Assembly: GCA_038889235.1 (NCBI GenBank)
Contig: JAWAHN010000005.1
Coordinates: 1-22,048, forward strand
Reading direction: 5' to 3'
Source: Candidatus Jordarchaeales archaeon
GTDB taxonomy: Archaea; Asgardarchaeota; Jordiarchaeia; Jordiarchaeales; Freyrarchaeaceae
DNA length: 22,048 bases
A program made the position numbers and the translations under genes. This document shows, one piece after another, positions 1,500 to 8,369 of the stretch. Position 1 is the stretch's first letter, and every line of letters begins with the position of its first letter. The notes below the pieces were generated by a model. It worked only from the letters and a program-made list of their open reading frames with translations. It was not told the origin of the DNA and made no database searches.

Positions 1500-2438
1500 G
1501 TGATGTGTTTTGGTGTTGAGTTTTTTGGGGAAGGTTTTTATGTGTGGTGTTTGGGGGGTTTTGTGGTGGTTGTTTTGGGTTGGAGGTTTGTTTTTGTTTT
1601 TCCTTTTGTGTTGTTTTTTGTTTTCTTTCTTTATAGGGCGACGGTGGCTTCTTTTTATGGGAGTTTGAGGGCGCCGTTTTTTGTGTTTTTGGTTTATTTG
1701 GTTTTGTTTGTTGTTGTTAGGAGGTTTGGGGGTGTTTTTGCGCGTGTTGTGTTTGTGGCTGGTCTTGTTCATGTTTGTTTCTGTTTTTCGTTGGTGTTGA
1801 GGGCGAGTTTCGCTTCTGTTTTTGTTTCGCTTGTTCCTTTGCTTGTTTTGTTGTTTTTCGTGTTGGTGTGTTTTGTTGTTCGTTTGTGGCCTTGTGTTGG
1901 TGCTTCGGCTGTTCTTGATGGTTTTGCGGTTTTTGCTGGTTTGAAGGTTAGGTTGGTTGTTTTCTTTAAGCTTGGGGGTGTGGGGGATGTGGGGGTGCTG
2001 CTTGGGGAGGCTTGGTCTAGGCGTTTGTCTTTTACTGTTGAGAGGTTGGGGGGTGAGGTTTTTGTTTCTGTTTGTTTTGAGGGGTTTTCGTATGGGAGGG
2101 TTGAGGGGGCTGCCGTGGAGGGGGCTGGGTGGTTTGAGGAGGTGTTGAGGAGGGGTGGTTTTAGGCCTAGGAGGGTGGAGGGTTGGGTTGAGGTTGAGAG
2201 GCTTCTTTATGCTCCTTTGTCTCCTGGGTGGGAGGCTTTGTATTTTGAGCCGTGTGTTGGTGGGTGGTCTACTGTTCGCCTTTTGCCGCCTTTGGGGAGG
2301 AGGGGGAGGGCGGTGGCTGTTAGGCGCGCTTTCAAGCCGGGTGGGCTTGACCCTCACCCTCAGTTTGCGCTTAAAGCTTTTATTAGTGGTTTTCAAGATA
2401 GTTTTGAGGGGTGGCGTGTTGGAGCTGCGCGAGATTAA
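1500..2438 (+). CDS. Hypothetical polytopic membrane protein with C-terminal soluble domain
   Basis: I do not recognise a named family. The 312-residue ORF has hydrophobic segments over about residues 15-50, 58-80, 85-105 and 108-135. A soluble C-terminal half (about 145-312) follows with a beta-rich stretch, LSFTVERLGGEVFVSVCFEG, then a gap and FEEVLRRGGFRPRRVEG. This TM-then-soluble layout and local pattern loosely resemble the N-terminal part of VirB4/HerA-type translocation ATPases, and the gene at 3719 has a similar plan; that link is inference. The start is uncertain: GTG 1500 follows an in-frame TAA at 1491, and later starts such as TTG 1551 are possible. The 3' end overlaps the RadA-like gene by about 20 bp, which suggests co-transcription. 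Composition is extreme (G+T about 90% at the 5' end). A long antisense ORF is a shadow of this skew. Confidence 0.6.
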   Translation: MMCFGVEFFGEGFYVWCLGGFVVVVLGWRFVFVFPFVLFFVFFLYRATVASFYGSLRAPFFVFLVYLVLFVVVRRFGGVFARVVFVAGLVHVCFCFSLVLRASFASVFVSLVPLLVLLFFVLVCFVVRLWPCVGASAVLDGFAVFAGLKVRLVVFFKLGGVGDVGVLLGEAWSRRLSFTVERLGGEVFVSVCFEGFSYGRVEGAAVEGAGWFEEVLRRGGFRPRRVEGWVEVERLLYAPLSPGWEALYFEPCVGGWSTVRLLPPLGRRGRAVAVRRAFKPGGLDPHPQFALKAFISGFQDSFEGWRVGAARD

Positions 2439-3402
2439 GGGGGTTGGACCTGAAACCCTTAGGAAGCTCATGGATGCGGGCTACACTACTGTTGAGAGTG
2501 TCGCTTTTGCCAGCCCGCAGGATCTTGCCTCTGATGCTGGGATAGGTGAGGCTACGGCTAGGAGGATAGTGGAGCAGGCGAGGAGGCTTGTCGCGAGCGG
2601 GGAGGGTAAGGGTGGGAGGCTCGTGCAGATACTTCCGGGGAGGGAGGCTAGGCGTATTCTGAGCAGCATAGAGAGGGTTACCACCGGTCTCAGGGGGCTC
2701 GACTCTATTCTCGGGGGCGGTGTCGAGACTTGTGCCATAACAGAGTTCTATGGTCCGGCTAGGGCCGGCAAAACCCAGCTCTGCCACCAGCTCTGCGTCA
2801 CGGTCCAGCTTCCGAGGGAGAGGGGTGGGCTCGAGGGTAGGGCATTGTACATAGACACTGAGAGGACGGTGAGGTATGACGCTATAGCGAGGATCGCTGA
2901 GAGGTTTGGGCTGGACCCGGACAGCGCTTGCGACAACGTTTTCTACACGTATGCCGTCAACAGTGAGGCGCTCCGGGAAACGATAAGGGGGCTCGACGGG
3001 GTGGTTAAGCAGGGCGCGGTGAAGCTGGTAGTGGTGGACTGCCTCACGGGGCACTTTAGGGCTGAGTACACTGGGAGGGAGACGCTGGCTTTGAGGCAGC
3101 AGCTCATAAACAGGATGATACACGACCTTCTCAGGCTTGCCTTAAGCTACGATCTGGCAGTTGTGGTCACAAACCAGGTTCACGCCCAGCCCGACGTTTG
3201 GGGCAAGAGCGAGGCGCCCACGGGGGGCCACGTCGTAGCCCACGGAGTAACGTACAGGGTTGGTCTCTCTGTGAAGAAGGGGAACGTTAGGATAGCGAGC
3301 TTGGTCGACGCGCCCGCTCTTCCGCCTTCATCCGCCTTCTTCGCTATAACCGACAGGGGGCTGGTGGATGTGAGCGAGGAGGAGGCTAAGAGGGGGGACT
3401 AG
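2419..3402 (+). CDS. radA: RadA/Rad51-family DNA recombinase, possibly a RadA paralog
   Basis: RadA is the archaeal RecA-family recombinase that assembles on single-stranded DNA and drives strand exchange. An N-terminal helix-hairpin-helix domain (ELREIKGVGPETLRKLMDAG, then IGEATARRIVEQA) is followed by the ATPase core. Visible motifs are Walker A GPARAGKTQ, the catalytic-Glu strand YIDTERTVR, Walker B LVVVDCLTGHFRAEY, loop 1 (TLALRQQLINRMIHDL), VTNQVHAQPD and the GGHV segment. The length, about 327 residues, is normal for RadA. TTG 2419 is preferred because GAGGGG at 2406-2411 sits 7 nt upstream; GTG 2416 is possible. The interdomain linker before VTTGLRGLD lacks a clear F-x-x-A polymerisation motif (it reads ILPGREARRILSS). 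This may therefore be a paralog rather than the housekeeping RadA. It leads a co-oriented DNA-handling gene run. Confidence 0.88.
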   Translation: MELREIKGVGPETLRKLMDAGYTTVESVAFASPQDLASDAGIGEATARRIVEQARRLVASGEGKGGRLVQILPGREARRILSSIERVTTGLRGLDSILGGGVETCAITEFYGPARAGKTQLCHQLCVTVQLPRERGGLEGRALYIDTERTVRYDAIARIAERFGLDPDSACDNVFYTYAVNSEALRETIRGLDGVVKQGAVKLVVVDCLTGHFRAEYTGRETLALRQQLINRMIHDLLRLALSYDLAVVVTNQVHAQPDVWGKSEAPTGGHVVAHGVTYRVGLSVKKGNVRIASLVDAPALPPSSAFFAITDRGLVDVSEEEAKRGD

Positions 3403-3404
3403 CC

Positions 3405-3722
3405 GTGTTGAGGCCCCTTCCCAGGCGTGTTAGAAAGTTCGAGTCGGAGAGGAGGAGGCTGAAGAAGAACGTGAGGGTGGTTGCTTTGAGGGGGGAGAGG
3501 TGGATGGCCTACGCGTCTCTTCCCTGGATGCGCGAGCTCTGCGGCCACCTTTACGGGGAGAACTGCTGCGTCAAGCTGGAGGAGAAGGGGGAGGGAGTGG
3601 TCCAAGCCACGGTTTACGCCTCGACAGCCGAGCTGGCTGATGCCGTGGCCTCCGAGCTTGAAAGGGGGTTCGAGATTTTCAGGACGGTGGAAGGTTGGGA
3701 GAAGAGGAAGGGGCAGGCGTGA
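3405..3722 (+). CDS. Small basic hypothetical protein
   Basis: This 105-residue protein has a strongly basic N-terminus (LPRRVRKFESERRRLKKN). A compact alpha/beta segment follows (VRVVALRGERWMAYASLP, ELCGHLYGENCCVKLEEKG, VVQATVYASTAELADAVASE). There is no TM segment and no motif that I recognise. It starts 2 nt after the RadA-like stop, with GGGGGGA at 3393-3398 as ribosome site for GTG 3405 (TTG 3408 is an alternative). Its last codons overlap the next gene by 4 bp. This tight packing between RadA-like and VirB4/HerA-like genes suggests it is an accessory nucleic-acid-binding or adaptor subunit of the same system, but that is context only. Confidence 0.7.
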   Translation: MLRPLPRRVRKFESERRRLKKNVRVVALRGERWMAYASLPWMRELCGHLYGENCCVKLEEKGEGVVQATVYASTAELADAVASELERGFEIFRTVEGWEKRKGQA

Positions 3723-4315
3723 AGTTGAGGGGGAGGAGGCCGGACTACCTTCTCGTGTCGCTCGGAGCGCTGGCGGCGCTTACACTAGCGGTTGCCGCCG
3801 CACCCCAACTGGCCCCGCTCGCCGCCGCAGTGCTCCCCGCGCTGGCCGCGTACTTCGCCTGGAGGCTGCGCCCCCGGGCGCTCGGCGGTGTTGTCAGGCG
3901 CGAGTCGGCCTTCTTAGGGGATGTCGTAGCCTCGTGGGTTGGGGGGAGGTGGAGGGCTTACAGCATGTTGCAGGTTGCATCGGTCCCGGACGTCATACGT
4001 GGAGACGTGAAGCGCTTTTTCAGGATGATGTACCTTGAGGGGGTTCCATTCTTCTACCACGTGAGGCAGGGGCCTGCGTCCTCTTGGTTTGTGAAGGGCG
4101 GGCGTGAGGCTGCTGTGAGGGCTTCGGGGGTGTGGAGCACGTCCATAGTGATAGGTGTCTGGGGTGAGGGGGCGAGGTTGGACGACGCTGTGAGGGAGGC
4201 GAGGGCTAGGGCTGAGAAGGCTAAAGCATTCTTCGAGGCGTCCTTCCCCCACCACAGGGTCGAGCTGCTTAAGGGTGGAAGCCTAGTTGACGCCGTGAAG
4301 GAGTGTTTTCCGTGA
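3719..4315 (+). CDS. Two-TM protein with VirB4/HerA N-terminal-like domain
   Basis: The predicted protein is about 198 residues. A short basic start (KLRGRRPDY) leads into two Ala/Leu-rich membrane helices over about residues 10-45 (LVSLGALAALTLAVAAAPQL and LAAAVLPALAAYFAWRL). A soluble domain follows with VRRESAFLGDVVASWVGGRW, YLEGVPFFYHVRQGPASSWF and DDAVREARARAEKAKAFFEA. The pattern of a short beta strand, a YxVRQG-like element and a helix before FPHHRVELLKG resembles the region preceding the ATPase in archaeal VirB4/CedB-type proteins. GTG 3719 overlaps the preceding TGA (GTGA) and has AAGGGG at 3708-3713. The ATPase-like partner begins 9 nt downstream, so this looks like a VirB4-type protein split into membrane/N-domain and motor-domain genes. 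The homology is by-eye inference. Confidence 0.6.
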   Translation: MKLRGRRPDYLLVSLGALAALTLAVAAAPQLAPLAAAVLPALAAYFAWRLRPRALGGVVRRESAFLGDVVASWVGGRWRAYSMLQVASVPDVIRGDVKRFFRMMYLEGVPFFYHVRQGPASSWFVKGGREAAVRASGVWSTSIVIGVWGEGARLDDAVREARARAEKAKAFFEASFPHHRVELLKGGSLVDAVKECFP

Positions 4316-4324
4316 GGTGGAAGG

Positions 4325-5767
4325 TTGAAGAGGTTCCGCTTGACGGGCGACGAGCTGAGCAGGTATGTGTCATTTGAGGGCACTGTCCGCGTAGGGGTCA
4401 AGAGTAGGCCGCCGGCAGAGTTCACTCTTCCACCTCTCCCATTTGACTTCCCCGTGGGCCTGGTAGTTGAAGCCGAGAACGTGGCGCCGCACAGTGTTTT
4501 CGGGTTCACGGTGGAAAACATGGCTGAAGGAGTGCTCGTAGCTGGGGGGAGCGCGGAGGAAAGAGTCAACACGCTCCTGAGGATCCTGGGCGGCTCCTCG
4601 AAGCTGGGCTGGAATATCGCCGCCGCCACCTCAAGAAACCTGGCCCGCGTCAGGTCTGTTGCACCACAAGCCAGGGTTTATGACGGATTCCCCCTCAACC
4701 CCTTAGACCCGGAAGAGGCGGGGGGCGCGGAGTACGCTTCAGCCCTCTCACTCACGCTTCAGTCGGCCCTCGGGTTGACGGGCGGCCAGAGGCTCCTACT
4801 GGAGGACGCAATCGCAATGTGCATGGATGAGGGAGCTCTAACACTTGAGGAGCTTAAGGAGAAGGTTAGGGAGGCGGCTGTAAGCGAGCTGAGGAGCCAG
4901 GCGGAGAGAAGGGAGGCGGAGCTCCTACACAGGGAGCTGGGGTTGACCATGTCCCTTAAGGGGGCTGAAAAGCTGTCACCGGCAAACCCTTCGACGCTCC
5001 GCTGGATGGTTGAGGCGCCGACAGTCGCACTACTGTGGGAGCCTAGGCTGGCGGCGGTCGCCCAGGCTTCGCTCCTAGCTAAAGCGATGTGCTTGGAGGT
5101 TAGGGGGTTCAGCGTGCTCGTCGAACTAGACTGTTTTGCCGAGCCGGAGCCGCTCGCCGGGGTCTTTAGGAGGCTTAGGGAGAAGGAGGTCGGAGTGGTT
5201 GCTTTGTCGCCGAGCGTCTCGCACGCCGGCTCCGCCGCCAGCGTCCTCGGAAACAGGGTCATACACAGGCTTGAGGACGGCGGCGAGGCGGGGCTTGTAG
5301 GCAGGCTTATGGGGTTGAGGGAGGAGGGGGAGAGCGTGCAGAGCGGTAGGAGACACAGGCTGTACCAGGTGGAGGTGTTAAGGTTCCTCGAGTGGGGGGA
5401 GGCCGTGGTTCAGAGGAGCGACAACCCTTCCCCGGTTTTGGTAGTCTTCGAGATGGTTGAGGGGGGTGAGGCGAGGGCGGAGCCTGTTTCGGGGGCTGGA
5501 GGGGGGAGAACGCCGCTCGAAGTTGACTTCGGGAGCGACGCGGCCGACGCCTTGAAGGTAATACAGTTGGTCCACGACTTTCCGCAGATAACGCTGAGCC
5601 AGGTGGTGGGCGGCCTACCAGAGATTGGGGAGAAGGCGAGGGTTCTCGCGCTCAGGCTGGCGGATAGGGGCTACCTCGCGTCGTTCAGGGATGGGAGGGG
5701 GAGGAGGGTTTTCGTGGTGACGAGGAGGGGTGAGGATGCCTTGAGGAGGGTTAGGGGTGGGGGCTGA
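4325..5767 (+). CDS. HerA/VirB4-like ATPase fold with degenerate nucleotide-binding motifs, C-terminal winged helix
   Basis: HerA/VirB4 proteins are hexameric motors that pump DNA or protein. This 480-residue protein keeps the family's layout but not its catalytic motifs. At the expected P-loop (about residues 68-90) the sequence reads EGVLVAGGSAEERVNTLLRI, with no GxxxxGK[ST]. LNPLDPEE (about 124) matches the family's NP-L segment. At the Walker B site (about 262) it reads FSVLVELDCFAEP rather than a DEAH-type box. VGVVALSPSVSHAGSAASVL and GNRVIHRLEDG match the sensor/IxxR-L region of HerA. Residues about 398-478 form a probable winged helix (FPQITLSQVVGGLPEIGEKA, then ADRGYLAS). TTG 4325 lies 4 nt after GAGGTGG. 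The gene overlaps the nuclease gene downstream by 11 bp. It is likely a non-hydrolysing subunit or scaffold. Confidence 0.6.
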   Translation: MKRFRLTGDELSRYVSFEGTVRVGVKSRPPAEFTLPPLPFDFPVGLVVEAENVAPHSVFGFTVENMAEGVLVAGGSAEERVNTLLRILGGSSKLGWNIAAATSRNLARVRSVAPQARVYDGFPLNPLDPEEAGGAEYASALSLTLQSALGLTGGQRLLLEDAIAMCMDEGALTLEELKEKVREAAVSELRSQAERREAELLHRELGLTMSLKGAEKLSPANPSTLRWMVEAPTVALLWEPRLAAVAQASLLAKAMCLEVRGFSVLVELDCFAEPEPLAGVFRRLREKEVGVVALSPSVSHAGSAASVLGNRVIHRLEDGGEAGLVGRLMGLREEGESVQSGRRHRLYQVEVLRFLEWGEAVVQRSDNPSPVLVVFEMVEGGEARAEPVSGAGGGRTPLEVDFGSDAADALKVIQLVHDFPQITLSQVVGGLPEIGEKARVLALRLADRGYLASFRDGRGRRVFVVTRRGEDALRRVRGGG

Positions 5768-6572
5768 CCTTTCACCTTTCGCCTCGTGGCGCCGGGCGGG
5801 GGGCCTTGGGAGGCTTGCGGTCGACGGCATGAACGTGCTCGTCGGCCAGCTCAGGTGGTCGAGGTGGGGGTGGAGGGTGGCGGCGGTGAACACGCTTTAC
5901 AGGCTTTTGAGGCTGGTGGAGCTCGGGGCTCACCCCGTATTCGTCTACGATGGGAAGCCTCACAAGGCGAAGGTGAGGGGGGAGGGTGGGGTAGCGCTCA
6001 GGTCGGCTTTGGGGCTCGTCGTTGAGGGGGCCCGGCTCATGGGGGTCCCATGCGTCCAGGCGCCCGGGGAGGGGGAGGCGCAGGCGGCTTACATGGCTGC
6101 TATTGGAGTGGCTGACGCGGTTTTCACGTCGGACTATGATGCCTTCCTCTTTGGCTCGCCTGTCGTTGTGAGGGAGCGTGGGGGGCTGGAGGAGTGTACT
6201 CTTAGAAGCGTGTTGGAAGCTTCCGGGTTGACGCTCAGGCAACTTGTGGACGCAGCGGTCCTCTCGGGAACGGACTTCAACACGGGTGTGAAGGGGGTCG
6301 GGATAAGGAGGGCGGTGGCGCTCGTGAAGGAGCATGGGTGCCTTGAGGGGGCACTGCGAGCCCTCGGAGTAAGTGAGTGTGACGAGTTCATCGAGGCGAG
6401 GAGGCTCTTTCTAGATCCTGACGTGGCGGATGTCAAAGTGGTGTTCGTAGCCCCCCAGATTGCTGGGCTCAGAAAGCTTCTCTCCGAGCATCTCTCAGAG
6501 TCTCACGCTGAAAACTTCGTCAAAAGACTGATGAATGCTAGGACGAGGCAGTTGAGGCTGGTGGAAGATTGA
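5757..6572 (+). CDS. FEN-1/XPG-family structure-specific nuclease, shortened form
   Basis: FEN-1 cleaves 5' flaps in replication and repair using two metal ions. The start MGADLSPF matches the family's MGVDL N-terminus and supports GTG 5757, inside the previous gene. Metal ligands are visible in LAVDGMN (about 24), VYDGKP (about 66), QAPGEGEAQAAYMAA (about 106-112), FTSDYDAFLFG (about 131-133) and LSGTDFN (about 182). VKGVGIRRAVALVKEHG is the helix-two-turn-helix DNA-binding element. The protein has 271 residues instead of about 340. Between DGKP and RLMGVP there are only about 30 residues, so most of the helical arch is missing, and the C-terminus (TRQLRLVED) has no PIP box for PCNA. It is therefore probably a dedicated paralog for substrates that do not need arch threading. 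It overlaps the next gene by 4 bp. Confidence 0.85.
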   Translation: MGADLSPFASWRRAGGLGRLAVDGMNVLVGQLRWSRWGWRVAAVNTLYRLLRLVELGAHPVFVYDGKPHKAKVRGEGGVALRSALGLVVEGARLMGVPCVQAPGEGEAQAAYMAAIGVADAVFTSDYDAFLFGSPVVVRERGGLEECTLRSVLEASGLTLRQLVDAAVLSGTDFNTGVKGVGIRRAVALVKEHGCLEGALRALGVSECDEFIEARRLFLDPDVADVKVVFVAPQIAGLRKLLSEHLSESHAENFVKRLMNARTRQLRLVED

Positions 6573-7306
6573 TTGACGCGTTAGTGTTTGTGGCGGCTTT
6601 AGCTGTAGTGGTGGCGGCGGCCGCGGCTTACGTTCTTGGAAGACACGTGTTGGCGGCGTTAGTGTGGCTGAAGCTTGCAGGCTGGGCGGCTAGGGTTGTA
6701 GTACGCCACTGGAGGCTGGGGGCAACGGTGGCTGCCGCTGCATTTGCTTTCGTGCTTCTTCAGGCGCCACTTCAAAGCGCGGCCTTCGCGGTCTTACCAT
6801 CTCTCCTAGCTGGCGCGGCTGCGTGGTTGCTGCTGCACGGGAGGGGGAGGGGGGCGGCAGCTTTGGGACTACTGGCGCTCACGTCAGTTGCTGCGCCGCG
6901 TGCGGCTCAGGCTCTGGCGCCGCTGGCCGCCGTGACAACGCTAGCGGCGGTAGCCCTAGCGGTGTTGGGGCTTGCTGCTTCAACTTTAAAAGGCAGAACG
7001 CCGCGGGAGGCCTTTCAAGCCACATATACTACTCCGGGGCTGACGGGAACTGTGGTGGGGGCGGTCAAAGAGAAAGGAGGGGTTAGGGTGGTTATGGTGG
7101 CCGTTGCAGACGGCGAGACGACGAGGGTGACTATCTCTGGAACGCTGAGAGACGAGTTCGAGGAGAAAGCGGGGGGAGTGGTGGCGAGCACCGTAAACAC
7201 TACGCGCGAGGTTAAAAAAGCCTGGAAACGCTACCTTGAGAGGGGAGACCCGCAGCTTGCGGTCACCTTGCTCTTAAAAACACTTCGGGCGGGTAACGGT
7301 CACTAG
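6569..7306 (+). CDS. Polytopic membrane protein with cytoplasmic tail
   Basis: This 245-residue protein has four to six Ala/Leu/Val-rich membrane helices over about residues 3-140 (for example LVFVAALAVVVAAAAAYVLG, GATVAAAAFAFVLLQAPLQS and FAVLPSLLAGAAAWLLL). A soluble tail of about 95 residues follows, with strands TYTTPGLTGTVVGAVKE, VRVVMVAVADGETTRVTISG and a basic helix TTREVKKAWKRYLERG. TTG 6569 overlaps the nuclease TGA. I do not recognise the family. A polytopic protein of this size beside a VirB4/HerA-like gene recalls the CedA-CedB pairing of the crenarchaeal DNA-import system, but I see no diagnostic CedA motif. The context suggests a membrane channel or anchor for the neighbouring DNA enzymes. 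Confidence 0.7.
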   Translation: MIDALVFVAALAVVVAAAAAYVLGRHVLAALVWLKLAGWAARVVVRHWRLGATVAAAAFAFVLLQAPLQSAAFAVLPSLLAGAAAWLLLHGRGRGAAALGLLALTSVAAPRAAQALAPLAAVTTLAAVALAVLGLAASTLKGRTPREAFQATYTTPGLTGTVVGAVKEKGGVRVVMVAVADGETTRVTISGTLRDEFEEKAGGVVASTVNTTREVKKAWKRYLERGDPQLAVTLLLKTLRAGNGH

Positions 7307-7342
7307 GGGCAGGTTGGACGAGGAGAACTGGAGGTGGGTTGC

Positions 7343-7720
7343 TTGGCTGTTAGGGTTTGTGTTTGCAGCCTTTGTGGCTCGTACTTCTCGTCTAAGGCTG
7401 GGAGGCCTAGGTGTCCTAGGTGTGGGGGGTGGGGGAGGGTGGTTGAGGAGGTTCTTGGAGCTGCGGCGGCGGCTCGGAGGGTGAGGGAGTTGCAGGCTTG
7501 TTCCAGCTTCCAGGAGTCTGGGGTTGTGGGGCCCGGTCGCTGTAAGCTGAGGGGGATGGGTAAGCTTAAATCCTATGTTGAGAGGCTTGGAGGAGTGGTG
7601 ACGGTGGAGGAGCTAGAGAGGGAGTTCGACGAGGAGTGGCTTAAGGTAGCTCTGGAGGAGCTTGAGGCGAGGGGTTTGGTTGTGAGGGTGGGTGGGAAGC
7701 TAGTTTTCAGGGAGGTGTAG
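7343..7720 (+). CDS. Zinc-ribbon / winged-helix protein
   Basis: This protein of about 125 residues begins with a four-cysteine zinc ribbon (CSLCGSYFSSKAGRPRCPRCGG, giving CxxC and CPRCGG knuckles). A spacer follows with two more cysteines (QACSSF, GRCKLRG). A C-terminal winged-helix-like segment has VERLGGVVTVEELEREFDEE and ALEELEARGLVVRVGGKLVF. TTG 7343 is preferred because GGAGGTG at 7330-7336 is 6 nt upstream; an in-frame GTG at 7334 sits inside that ribosome site. The small size and double DNA-binding look suggest a transcriptional regulator or DNA adaptor of the surrounding cluster. The specific family is unknown to me. Confidence 0.7.
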   Translation: MAVRVCVCSLCGSYFSSKAGRPRCPRCGGWGRVVEEVLGAAAAARRVRELQACSSFQESGVVGPGRCKLRGMGKLKSYVERLGGVVTVEELEREFDEEWLKVALEELEARGLVVRVGGKLVFREV

Positions 7721-7724
7721 GGGG

Positions 7725-8369
7725 TTGTCGTCCCTTGGCGGGCGGACTAGGGCTGCTAGGAGTGGGGGGCTTGTGATCCACGTTTGGGGGGAGGCTGGGA
7801 GCGGGAAGACCGCTCTCGCGGCTCGGGTAGCTTCAACTCTCTCCGAGGAGGGCTTCCACGTCATATATGTCTCAGATAGGCTTCCCAGGAGTGTTTGGGG
7901 GGATGTTGAGCGGGTGACCTTTGTAGTGGCTTCCGATGAGCGCGTTATTCCGGAGCTCCCAGACACGCTGGAGAGGCTTGTGAATCCGAGAACGAGGCTG
8001 ATAGTCTTGGACACTGCTGCCTCGCTTTACGGGCATTTGCCGAGAACCGCGAAACTGAGGCTTCTCCCGCTGGTCCTCCTGAAGCTTAAAAGGCTCGCAG
8101 CTGAGAAGGGGGTCTCAACCTTACTGCTAAACGACGCAGTGCAGGCGAGCGGTGGGGTGAAGCCGTGGGAGCAGGAAGAACTAGAGAAGTACGCGGACTT
8201 AACAGTTCACCTGGCGAAGTGGGACGGCGAGCGGATAGCTAAAGGCGCCCCGCTTACAGACTACCTCCCATGGGAGGCGCTAGAAACACTGGCCGCGAAA
8301 AGCGGTGAAACAGCGAGAGGAAGCCAAACCGGAAACACGGCACTAAACGCTAGGCGAAGCCGCGGGTAA
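7725..8369 (+). CDS. RecA-superfamily P-loop ATPase (RadB/KaiC-like)
   Basis: This 214-residue single-domain ATPase carries Walker A GEAGSGKTALAARVA (about residues 22-36) and Walker B TRLIVLDTAASLYGHLP (about 94). The following strand STLLLNDAVQASGG corresponds to the VTNQV strand of RadA. It lacks the helix-hairpin-helix domain and is close in size to RadB and short RecA paralogs, which assist recombinases and have weak ATPase activity. TTG 7725 is well supported by GGAGGTG at 7711-7717 with 7-nt spacing, 4 nt after the upstream stop. The last 25 or so residues (TARGSQTGNTALNARRSRG) look disordered. It is the last gene of the cluster that opens with the RadA-like gene, so two RecA-family proteins bracket the run. 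Confidence 0.8.
   Translation: MSSLGGRTRAARSGGLVIHVWGEAGSGKTALAARVASTLSEEGFHVIYVSDRLPRSVWGDVERVTFVVASDERVIPELPDTLERLVNPRTRLIVLDTAASLYGHLPRTAKLRLLPLVLLKLKRLAAEKGVSTLLLNDAVQASGGVKPWEQEELEKYADLTVHLAKWDGERIAKGAPLTDYLPWEALETLAAKSGETARGSQTGNTALNARRSRG

Follow-up and report, generated by a model that had tools for sequence, protein, structure and literature searches.

A conserved Asgard gene cluster with a P-loop-less VirB4/HerA-like pair and RadA and FEN paralogues, a candidate membrane DNA-processing system

Gene content and host of the locus

This work describes a run of nine genes, here g1 to g9, which may form a membrane-linked DNA-processing system and which lie in a 22,048 bp stretch of DNA (the window) that constitutes the entire contig C5 of a 2.14 Mb genome, 95% complete and assembled in 8 contigs. 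The nine open reading frames (ORFs), all on the + strand, span positions 1500–8369, and neighbours overlap or sit 2–27 bp apart. An initial annotation had reported eight packed, co-oriented genes at 2419–8369 and a ninth membrane ORF at 1500 that overlaps the first of them, and the ORFs are indeed present at these places. Its assignment of the DNA to Thermoproteota has to be abandoned, since the relatives named by a genome scan (Ca. Jordarchaeum, Freyarchaeota, Jordarchaeia, Baldrarchaeota, Thorarchaeota and one labelled Lokiarchaeota) are all Asgard. Judged by these names, the host is an Asgard archaeon of the same order as Ca. Jordarchaeum.

Gene content, predicted folds, Walker A loss, fusions, linkage and paralogue status were computed. 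Pfam and NCBIfam name only g2 (RadA-like), g6 (FEN-like) and g9 (P-loop ATPase), the remaining products giving no match or a non-significant one. Transmembrane (TM) counts come from a simple hydropathy scan, and AlphaFold2 models were made from the window proteins and named relatives. The features of the locus, with the evidence for each in brackets, are the following:

1500–2438, + strand: g1, hydrophobic N-terminal helices and a soluble C-terminal region, family unnamed (homologue in sister species G003)
2419–3402, + strand: g2, RadA2, a RadA/Rad51 paralogue with a helix-hairpin-helix domain (Rad51 Pfam, 5.8e-74)
3405–3722, + strand: g3, small protein (homologue in G003)
3695–4315, alternative GTG start 3719, + strand: g4, two hydrophobic N-terminal helices and a fold like the VirB4 N-terminal domain (predicted structure)
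4325–5767, + strand: g5, HerA/VirB4/TrwB-type pseudo-ATPase domain and a C-terminal winged-helix-like region (predicted structure)
5757–6572, + strand: g6, FEN2, an arch-less paralogue of the FEN nuclease family (XPG_I, 3.7e-20)
6569–7306, + strand: g7, polytopic membrane protein (about five helices) with a soluble C-terminal region (hydropathy, homologue in G003)
7334–7720, + strand: g8, Cys-rich zinc-ribbon-like N-terminus and winged-helix-like C-terminus (family in other Asgard)
7725–8369, + strand: g9, RadB-like RecA-fold ATPase with Walker A GEAGSGKT (TIGR02237 RadB, 1.1e-7)
29–1285, + strand: clustered regularly interspaced short palindromic repeats (CRISPR) array of 17 perfect 36-nt repeats, context outside the system (contig starts here)

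The same gene run was found in the sister species G003, of the same genus, split over two contigs by a break inside g5. Its order is helicase C-terminus, g9, g1, g2, g3, g4 and the N-terminal part of g5 on one contig, and the C-terminal part of g5, g6 and g7 on the other. Identity between the window proteins and those of G003 was about 92% for g2, about 70% for g5 and g6, 65% for g9, 63% for g4, 61% for g3, 53% for g1 (262 aa) and 41% for g7. The g1 homologue sits directly upstream of RadA2 in G003, so the unusual membrane ORF at position 1500 is genuine. The position of g9 differs, being upstream of g1 in G003 and after g8 in the window, where the place upstream of g1 is taken by the CRISPR array. 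The system extends beyond the window: the contig opens inside that array, and the helicase gene lying upstream in the sister is not in the assembly.

A VirB4-like protein divided in two and devoid of the P-loop

Neither g4 nor g5 has a significant match in Pfam or NCBIfam, and both were compared through their predicted structures. The model of g4 is a modest one (predicted local distance difference test, pLDDT, 71), and its three top Foldseek matches are TrwK/VirB4 (best 7o42, E 1.7e-3, prob 1.00); with VIA-align, residues 64–206 of g4 lie on residues 216–374 of TrwK (Z 8.1, 130 residues, 4.6 Å). For g5 (pLDDT 82, predicted template modelling score 0.70), Foldseek gave HerA 4d2i (E 7.7e-11), TrwB (2.7e-9) and VirB4 4ag5 (3.2e-9), and VIA-align gave DndH-C (Z 24.7), VirB4 4ag5 (Z 22.9, 315 residues, 3.8 Å) and TrwB (Z about 22.5), several being tied. 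These models support a resemblance of g4 to the VirB4 N-terminal domain and a HerA/VirB4/TrwB-type fold for g5. The initial annotation had proposed a VirB4/HerA relation for the genes at 3719 and 4325 and had named structure prediction as a check on it; the models bear that relation out.

As modelled, g4 and g5 together look like the two pieces of one VirB4 protein, preceded by hydrophobic helices. They are neighbouring genes in Jordarchaeia, Baldrarchaeia and the group f10, and form a single protein of about 780 residues in Thorarchaeia. In Lokiarchaeia, a protein of about 1,300 residues consists of two g4-like units, each with an hhalign probability of 99%, followed by a g5-like domain. The g4 family was matched by hhalign to the fused N-terminus of Thorarchaeia as well as to both N-terminal units of Lokiarchaeia.

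The Walker A motif (GxxxxGK[ST]) is absent from g5 of the window, in agreement with its earlier description as a HerA-like pseudo-ATPase. Among 53 distinct aligned proteins of the g5 family this P-loop is visibly missing in all but two. One of these is a fragment without residues at the P-loop, and the second, L106, matches the family weakly and resembles an ordinary HerA. In many members the P-loop is replaced by GG[ST]xxER, whose Arg was invariant in the first alignment of 12 sequences; this conservation around the lost P-loop therefore argues for a conserved state and not for random decay. With respect to the known classes, the folds of both VirB4 domains are found (the N-terminal one in g4 and the ATPase one in g5) and the VirB4 Walker A is lacking, while g5 matches HerA by fold alone, the P-loop of an active translocase being absent.

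RadA2, FEN2 and the helicases of the system

The g2 product keeps intact Walker A (GPARAGKTQ) and Walker B motifs, and its Pfam Rad51 match confirms the RadA-like recombinase annotated there. It reaches 334.6 bits against the RadA equivalog TIGR02236, below the cut-off of 361.15, and passes the own cut-off of NF003301. A canonical RadA, 51% identical to g2, is encoded at C1:818133, and in a tree the cluster RadAs and the canonical RadAs lie on opposite sides of a 99/95 branch, with the exception of one long-branch f8 row. The FEN family gave a similar picture: g6 scores 139 bits against TIGR03674 (cut-off 351.95; 139–163 bits for the FEN2 proteins), while the canonical FEN at C1:802784 scores 508 bits. 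In the FEN2 alignment D23, D65, E105, E107, D126, D128, D165 and D173 are invariant, so that the active-site acids are kept. The helical-arch segment between D65 and the GEGEAQ motif is missing from g6 in the window and in G003, and the arch-less FEN of the initial annotation thus stands. The FEN2 copies of Thorarchaeia retain the arch segment, and several end in QxxLxxWF-like tails resembling PCNA-binding motifs.

By sequence comparison, RadA2 and FEN2 are paralogues that have diverged from the canonical RadA and FEN; the possibility that they are redundant with the housekeeping genes was rejected, given that the canonical copies lie elsewhere. As a separate observation, the Baldrarchaeia genomes G034 and G012 have two near-canonical FEN genes each, and at least two canonical-type RadA genes lie outside the cluster in G004, G007, G113, G112 and Lokiarchaeia.

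As to g9, described as a RadB-like ATPase, the RadB model is matched (1.1e-7), and the 32 bits obtained fall short of the equivalog cut-off of TIGR02237 (172.4). Its family is also present in the clusters of f2 Jordarchaeia, Baldrarchaeia, f10, f26 and f27, with weaker relatives in Thorarchaeia and Lokiarchaeia.

The system also includes a Hel308-like helicase that carries a SWIM-like cysteine motif. This invariant motif (CxCx(n)CxH) resembles SWIM and leaves the Pfam SWIM model unmatched; full-length system helicases score far above ordinary Hel308, whose matches are limited to the first ~460 model positions. The helicase was not found in the assembled genome of the window, and its end lies just upstream in sister G003; because the window contig starts inside the CRISPR array, the gene may be lacking from the host or from the assembly alone. 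A second helicase accompanies the system according to lineage, being XPD-like in Thorarchaeia, f26 and f27. In Lokiarchaeia, the gene adjoining the g8-like one encodes a DEAD helicase with a helical-bundle insert (L181 11442–13571, L182 17345–19438, L188 1331–3358), which we read as Hef/FANCM-like, where Thorarchaeia have the XPD-like one.

This set of enzymes bears on the first alternative to be weighed, a membrane-tethered repair centre without DNA transfer, where chromosomal DNA, broken or under replication, would be held at the membrane by the pseudo-VirB4 and the other membrane proteins and repaired there by RadA2, FEN2 and the helicases. Every enzymatic part, including the XPD-like or Hef-like second helicase, is a repair enzyme, a dead VirB4 suits a scaffold better than a transporter, and neither pilin nor channel was recognised. 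However, a purely cytosolic job would hardly account for large predicted ectodomains (M28 peptidase, alpha-alpha toroid) or for several polytopic proteins, and relatives of VirB4 otherwise serve transfer across membranes (PMC9905601). We consider such a repair centre rather unlikely, and rank it second among the readings weighed here.

Conservation of the cluster across Asgard archaea

Matches to the system, weak ones included, were obtained in 114 of the 227 Asgard genomes of our set. In Thorarchaeia the run comprises up to 15 genes whose order is nearly fixed: two unknown genes, RadA2, a g8-like gene, an unknown gene, the XPD-like helicase, a 2-TM protein related to g4 (hhalign 91%), a small protein, the pseudo-VirB4 fusion, the SWIM-like helicase, another 2-TM protein, a RadB-like gene, a polytopic protein, a second RadB-like gene and FEN2. 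The f2 Jordarchaeia carry FEN2, a 4-TM protein, g9, g8 and the helicase, and then RadA2, a protein with an M28-peptidase ectodomain, a 4-TM protein, g4 and g5. Rearranged versions, with a RadA paralogue, a FEN paralogue, the helicase and the pseudo-VirB4 on a single contig, were found in four further groups:

f10: G023 C21, 16.9–38.6 kb
f26: G112 C106, 3.3–20.7 kb
f27: G113 C11, 597–632 kb
Lokiarchaeia: G180 C11, 95–122 kb

The RadA and FEN paralogues also share a contig in f2 Jordarchaeia and Thorarchaeia, and canonical RadA and FEN are retained elsewhere in most cluster-bearing genomes. Among the matches listed for the 227 genomes, the helicase and the g5 family occur together in 76, singly in 12 and 16, and are both missing in 123 (Fisher p 4e-31, a merely descriptive value because the counts ignore relatedness and come from the matches listed). 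Where both lie on one contig (61 genomes), they are less than 12 kb apart in 56 and less than 35 kb apart in 60. The gene run is thus not due to chance, its order being kept in the sister species and its linkage across Asgard; scattering of the genes in related genomes, which the initial annotation had named as a refutation, was not what we found. In the helicase tree, the copies of Thorarchaeia, Lokiarchaeia, f2 Jordarchaeia and Baldrarchaeia form one clade each, a pattern as expected from long vertical descent with losses.

A scan of genome contigs with one short peptide pattern returned 8 loci, all Asgard, by which absence outside Asgard is weakly tested. Collections of viral contigs, plasmids and phages held no relative of the system, and a mobile element was rejected on that ground. 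It must be noted that incompleteness of metagenome-assembled genomes inflates the apparent patchiness of the distribution.

These data have to be considered together with the possibility of a domesticated or degenerate conjugative element, mostly a relic or still mobile, in which VirB4 has decayed. The VirB4 ancestry, the loss of the P-loop and the patchy presence would agree with it, as would genome G164, which has two copies of the helicase and of a g5-like gene. However, the conserved GG[ST]xxER around the lost P-loop in many members is unlike decay, the neighbours examined included no recognisable integrase, relaxase or replication gene, and plasmids, phages and viral contigs gave no match. 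This origin is accordingly ranked third and appears quite improbable.

A role in defence, with the HerA-like protein, the helicases and the nuclease recognising, destroying or blocking invading DNA at the membrane, would also be compatible with a patchy distribution, and DndH-C is the best VIA match of g5, several anti-phage HerA complexes scoring high too. Nevertheless, HerA, TrwB and VirB4 fit g5 about equally well, and the absence from viral contigs, plasmids and phages applies here as well. Moreover, the clean lineage clades of the helicase tree and the fixed gene order of Thorarchaeia are unlike typical shuffled defence islands. The PADLOC matches were weak only (mad8, one candidate model), for which a known defence system was rejected, and defence, the last in our ranking, is held to be very improbable.

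Membrane and accessory proteins

No match for g1 was found in Pfam, NCBIfam, PADLOC or PHROGs, and its candidacy as a second VirB4 N-domain was dropped after an hhalign comparison with g4, made with two sequences only, found nothing. The small protein g3 has no significant Pfam or NCBIfam match and has a homologue in the same place in G003. The g7 homologue follows FEN2 in G003, and a polytopic gene is also present between FEN2 and g9/g8 in f2 Jordarchaeia; hhalign detected nothing that would make g7 an orthologue of this f2 protein or of C16. Members of the g8 family stand beside RadA2 in Thorarchaeia and beside g9 in f2 Jordarchaeia and f10, with weak ones near helicases in Lokiarchaeia.

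Big membrane proteins for which ectodomains are predicted are repeatedly found next to the system, in different Asgard lineages:

L029–L032: M28 peptidase
L034, 16285–19527, and L183, 2571–7505: alpha-alpha toroid, with bacterial Ig-like domains in L183
L181, 8475–10820: probable, identified by eye

Beside the RadB-like gene, Lokiarchaeia also encode two membrane proteins, a small one with 2 TM helices and one with six, the latter giving a weak M50/zincin-peptidase match (L181 5608–6729, L182 10496–11660). Searches among the small and polytopic cluster proteins for a VirB2/CedA1-like pilin or a VirB6/CedA-like channel, for which sequence methods are weak, gave weak matches only.

Comparison with known systems

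In the openly licensed literature we found no paper describing these parts together in Asgard, and a 2014 survey of archaeal dark-matter islands does not mention RadA or an inactivated ATPase. The cluster is therefore apparently undescribed, no known system combining these parts. With respect to bacterial type IV secretion systems (T4SS), the predicted folds of g4 and g5 correspond to the N-domain and the ATPase domain of VirB4/TrwK, in the same order, but the protein is split in the window, Walker A is lost and no VirB6, VirB2 or relaxase was recognised. HerA–NurA end resection likewise places a HerA-type fold beside recombination enzymes, whereas g5 is paired with a membrane N-domain, has no P-loop and has a FEN-type nuclease as neighbour. 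Eukaryotes have complexes of a RAD51 paralogue with a SWIM protein (Shu/SWS1-type). Compared by motif only, the Asgard cluster is similar in encoding RecA-family paralogues together with a CxCx(n)CxH-motif protein, and differs in that a Hel308-like helicase, accompanied by membrane partners, bears the motif.

The likeness to the Ced system of Sulfolobales (CedA/A1/A2, CedB, CedD, CedE), raised in the initial annotation, gains from the fact that the VirB4-type N-domain is split there too, between CedB and CedD (PMC11868833). Ced is also a chromosomal archaeal membrane system thought to feed homologous recombination. In contrast to it, the Asgard ATPase domain has no Walker A, no CedA/CedA1-like protein was recognised, and dedicated RadA, FEN and helicase genes are included; a search for CedD in the host genome gave only sub-threshold HerA-type matches. 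The Ted system of Thermoproteales (TedA, TedB, TedC) has a VirB4-like protein, the VirB4/CedB-like AAA+ ATPase TedB, accompanied by membrane proteins and often near HerA, ParA and Rad50 genes (PMC9905601). The Asgard pair is likewise accompanied by membrane proteins, but its neighbours are RadA2, FEN2, the SWIM-like helicase and a RadB-like ATPase, and no pilin was recognised. Because the VirB4 P-loop is lacking and no pilin or channel was recognised, we do not file the system as T4SS, Ced or Ted; the label would become a T4SS-like archaeal exchange variant if import were shown.

Proposed role of the system

From the above results we infer a complex, its ring form, its driving force, the direction of movement and the crossing of the membrane by DNA. 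The membrane-anchored g4 and the cytosolic g5, the two parts of a split, catalytically dead VirB4/HerA-like protein, would form a ring-like, non-pumping scaffold at the membrane, joined by the membrane proteins g1 and g7 and by the lineage-specific ectodomain proteins. Since this scaffold has no normal P-loop, the drive would be supplied by the co-encoded helicases (Hel308/SWIM-like, and XPD-like or Hef-like in some lineages) and by the RecA-fold ATPases. Single-stranded DNA at the membrane would be coated by RadA2, probably aided by g9, and so paired with the chromosome; removal of the flaps that arise would fall to FEN2, and g8 would serve as adaptor.

The recurring big ectodomains presumably face outward, which would speak for contact with other cells or external DNA, and so import or exchange of DNA coupled to homologous recombination is favoured among the four readings. 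We tentatively propose, with a confidence somewhat below an even chance, an Asgard-wide chromosomal membrane machine for DNA processing whose likeliest job is DNA uptake or exchange between cells, which would make it functionally similar to the crenarchaeal Ced and Ted systems and differently built. Several points weigh against this proposal. The fold match of g4 is modest (Z 8.1, E 1.7e-3), and a VirB4-like subunit that by its sequence has no motor P-loop cannot work as an ATP-driven motor of the ordinary kind. The window assembly lacks the helicase, the distribution is patchy, with several fairly complete Thorarchaeia genomes devoid of the system, and neither a pilin nor a VirB6/CedA-like channel, a relaxase or a coupling protein was recognised.

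A further-reaching and more doubtful version would see an ancient membrane machine with no described counterpart, in which DNA held at the membrane by a dead VirB4/HerA ring is driven by separate helicases and recombined by a dedicated RadA/FEN pair, as a cell-to-cell exchange apparatus inherited along the lineage ancestral to eukaryotes; we regard this as unlikely. Asgard archaea are the closest known relatives of eukaryotes, and DNA exchange among them bears on the origin of genetic exchange in the eukaryote lineage; no such apparatus was found described for them. The conserved cluster, which encodes a recombinase, a flap nuclease and a helicase of its own and a membrane-fixed dead relative of a conjugation motor, provides a gene list that can be tested in cultivated Lokiarchaea, and would, if the proposal is true, be a striking example of how a DNA-pumping ATPase became a scaffold.

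Composition of the CRISPR-array flanks

The repeat of the window array was not found in five relatives examined. The CRISPR arrays of the host genome are flanked by tracts of 1–2.5 kb with an extreme strand-asymmetric composition that fades with distance, G+T-rich and C- and A-poor on the strand reading away from the array, independently of gene direction. The tract loci are:

Window, 1330–2450
G000 C1, 1601–2800 (L193)
C2, 3993–5800 (L194)
C2, 455001–463000 (L196)
C3, left end (L198)
C4, left end (L197)

The stretch of about 1.1 kb that follows the window array, including most of g1, is C-poor on the + strand (1% at 1401–1600), and the composition is normal by about 2.5 kb. At silent sites compared with the sister, g1 shows 36 C-to-T against 2 T-to-C changes and the g2 control 25 against 19, the direction being assumed from the sister with no outgroup. 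Arrays with the same repeat on C1 and C2 have a G+T-rich tract on the 3' side whatever the gene direction, while the one at the right end of C3 has none on that side; at an array with a different repeat, the leader side is A+C-rich and the trailer side G+T-rich. At the start of contigs C3 and C4, T+G-rich tracts come after part of the repeat, and C3:1–120 is identical to C4:1–120 (L198, L197), its first bases being the first half of the CRISPR repeat in reverse complement. These shared 120-base starts reflect either a duplication of leader regions or breaks of the assembly at arrays. The skew diverges from the arrays, a pattern that strand-specific deamination, by way of transcription or repair synthesis, might produce.

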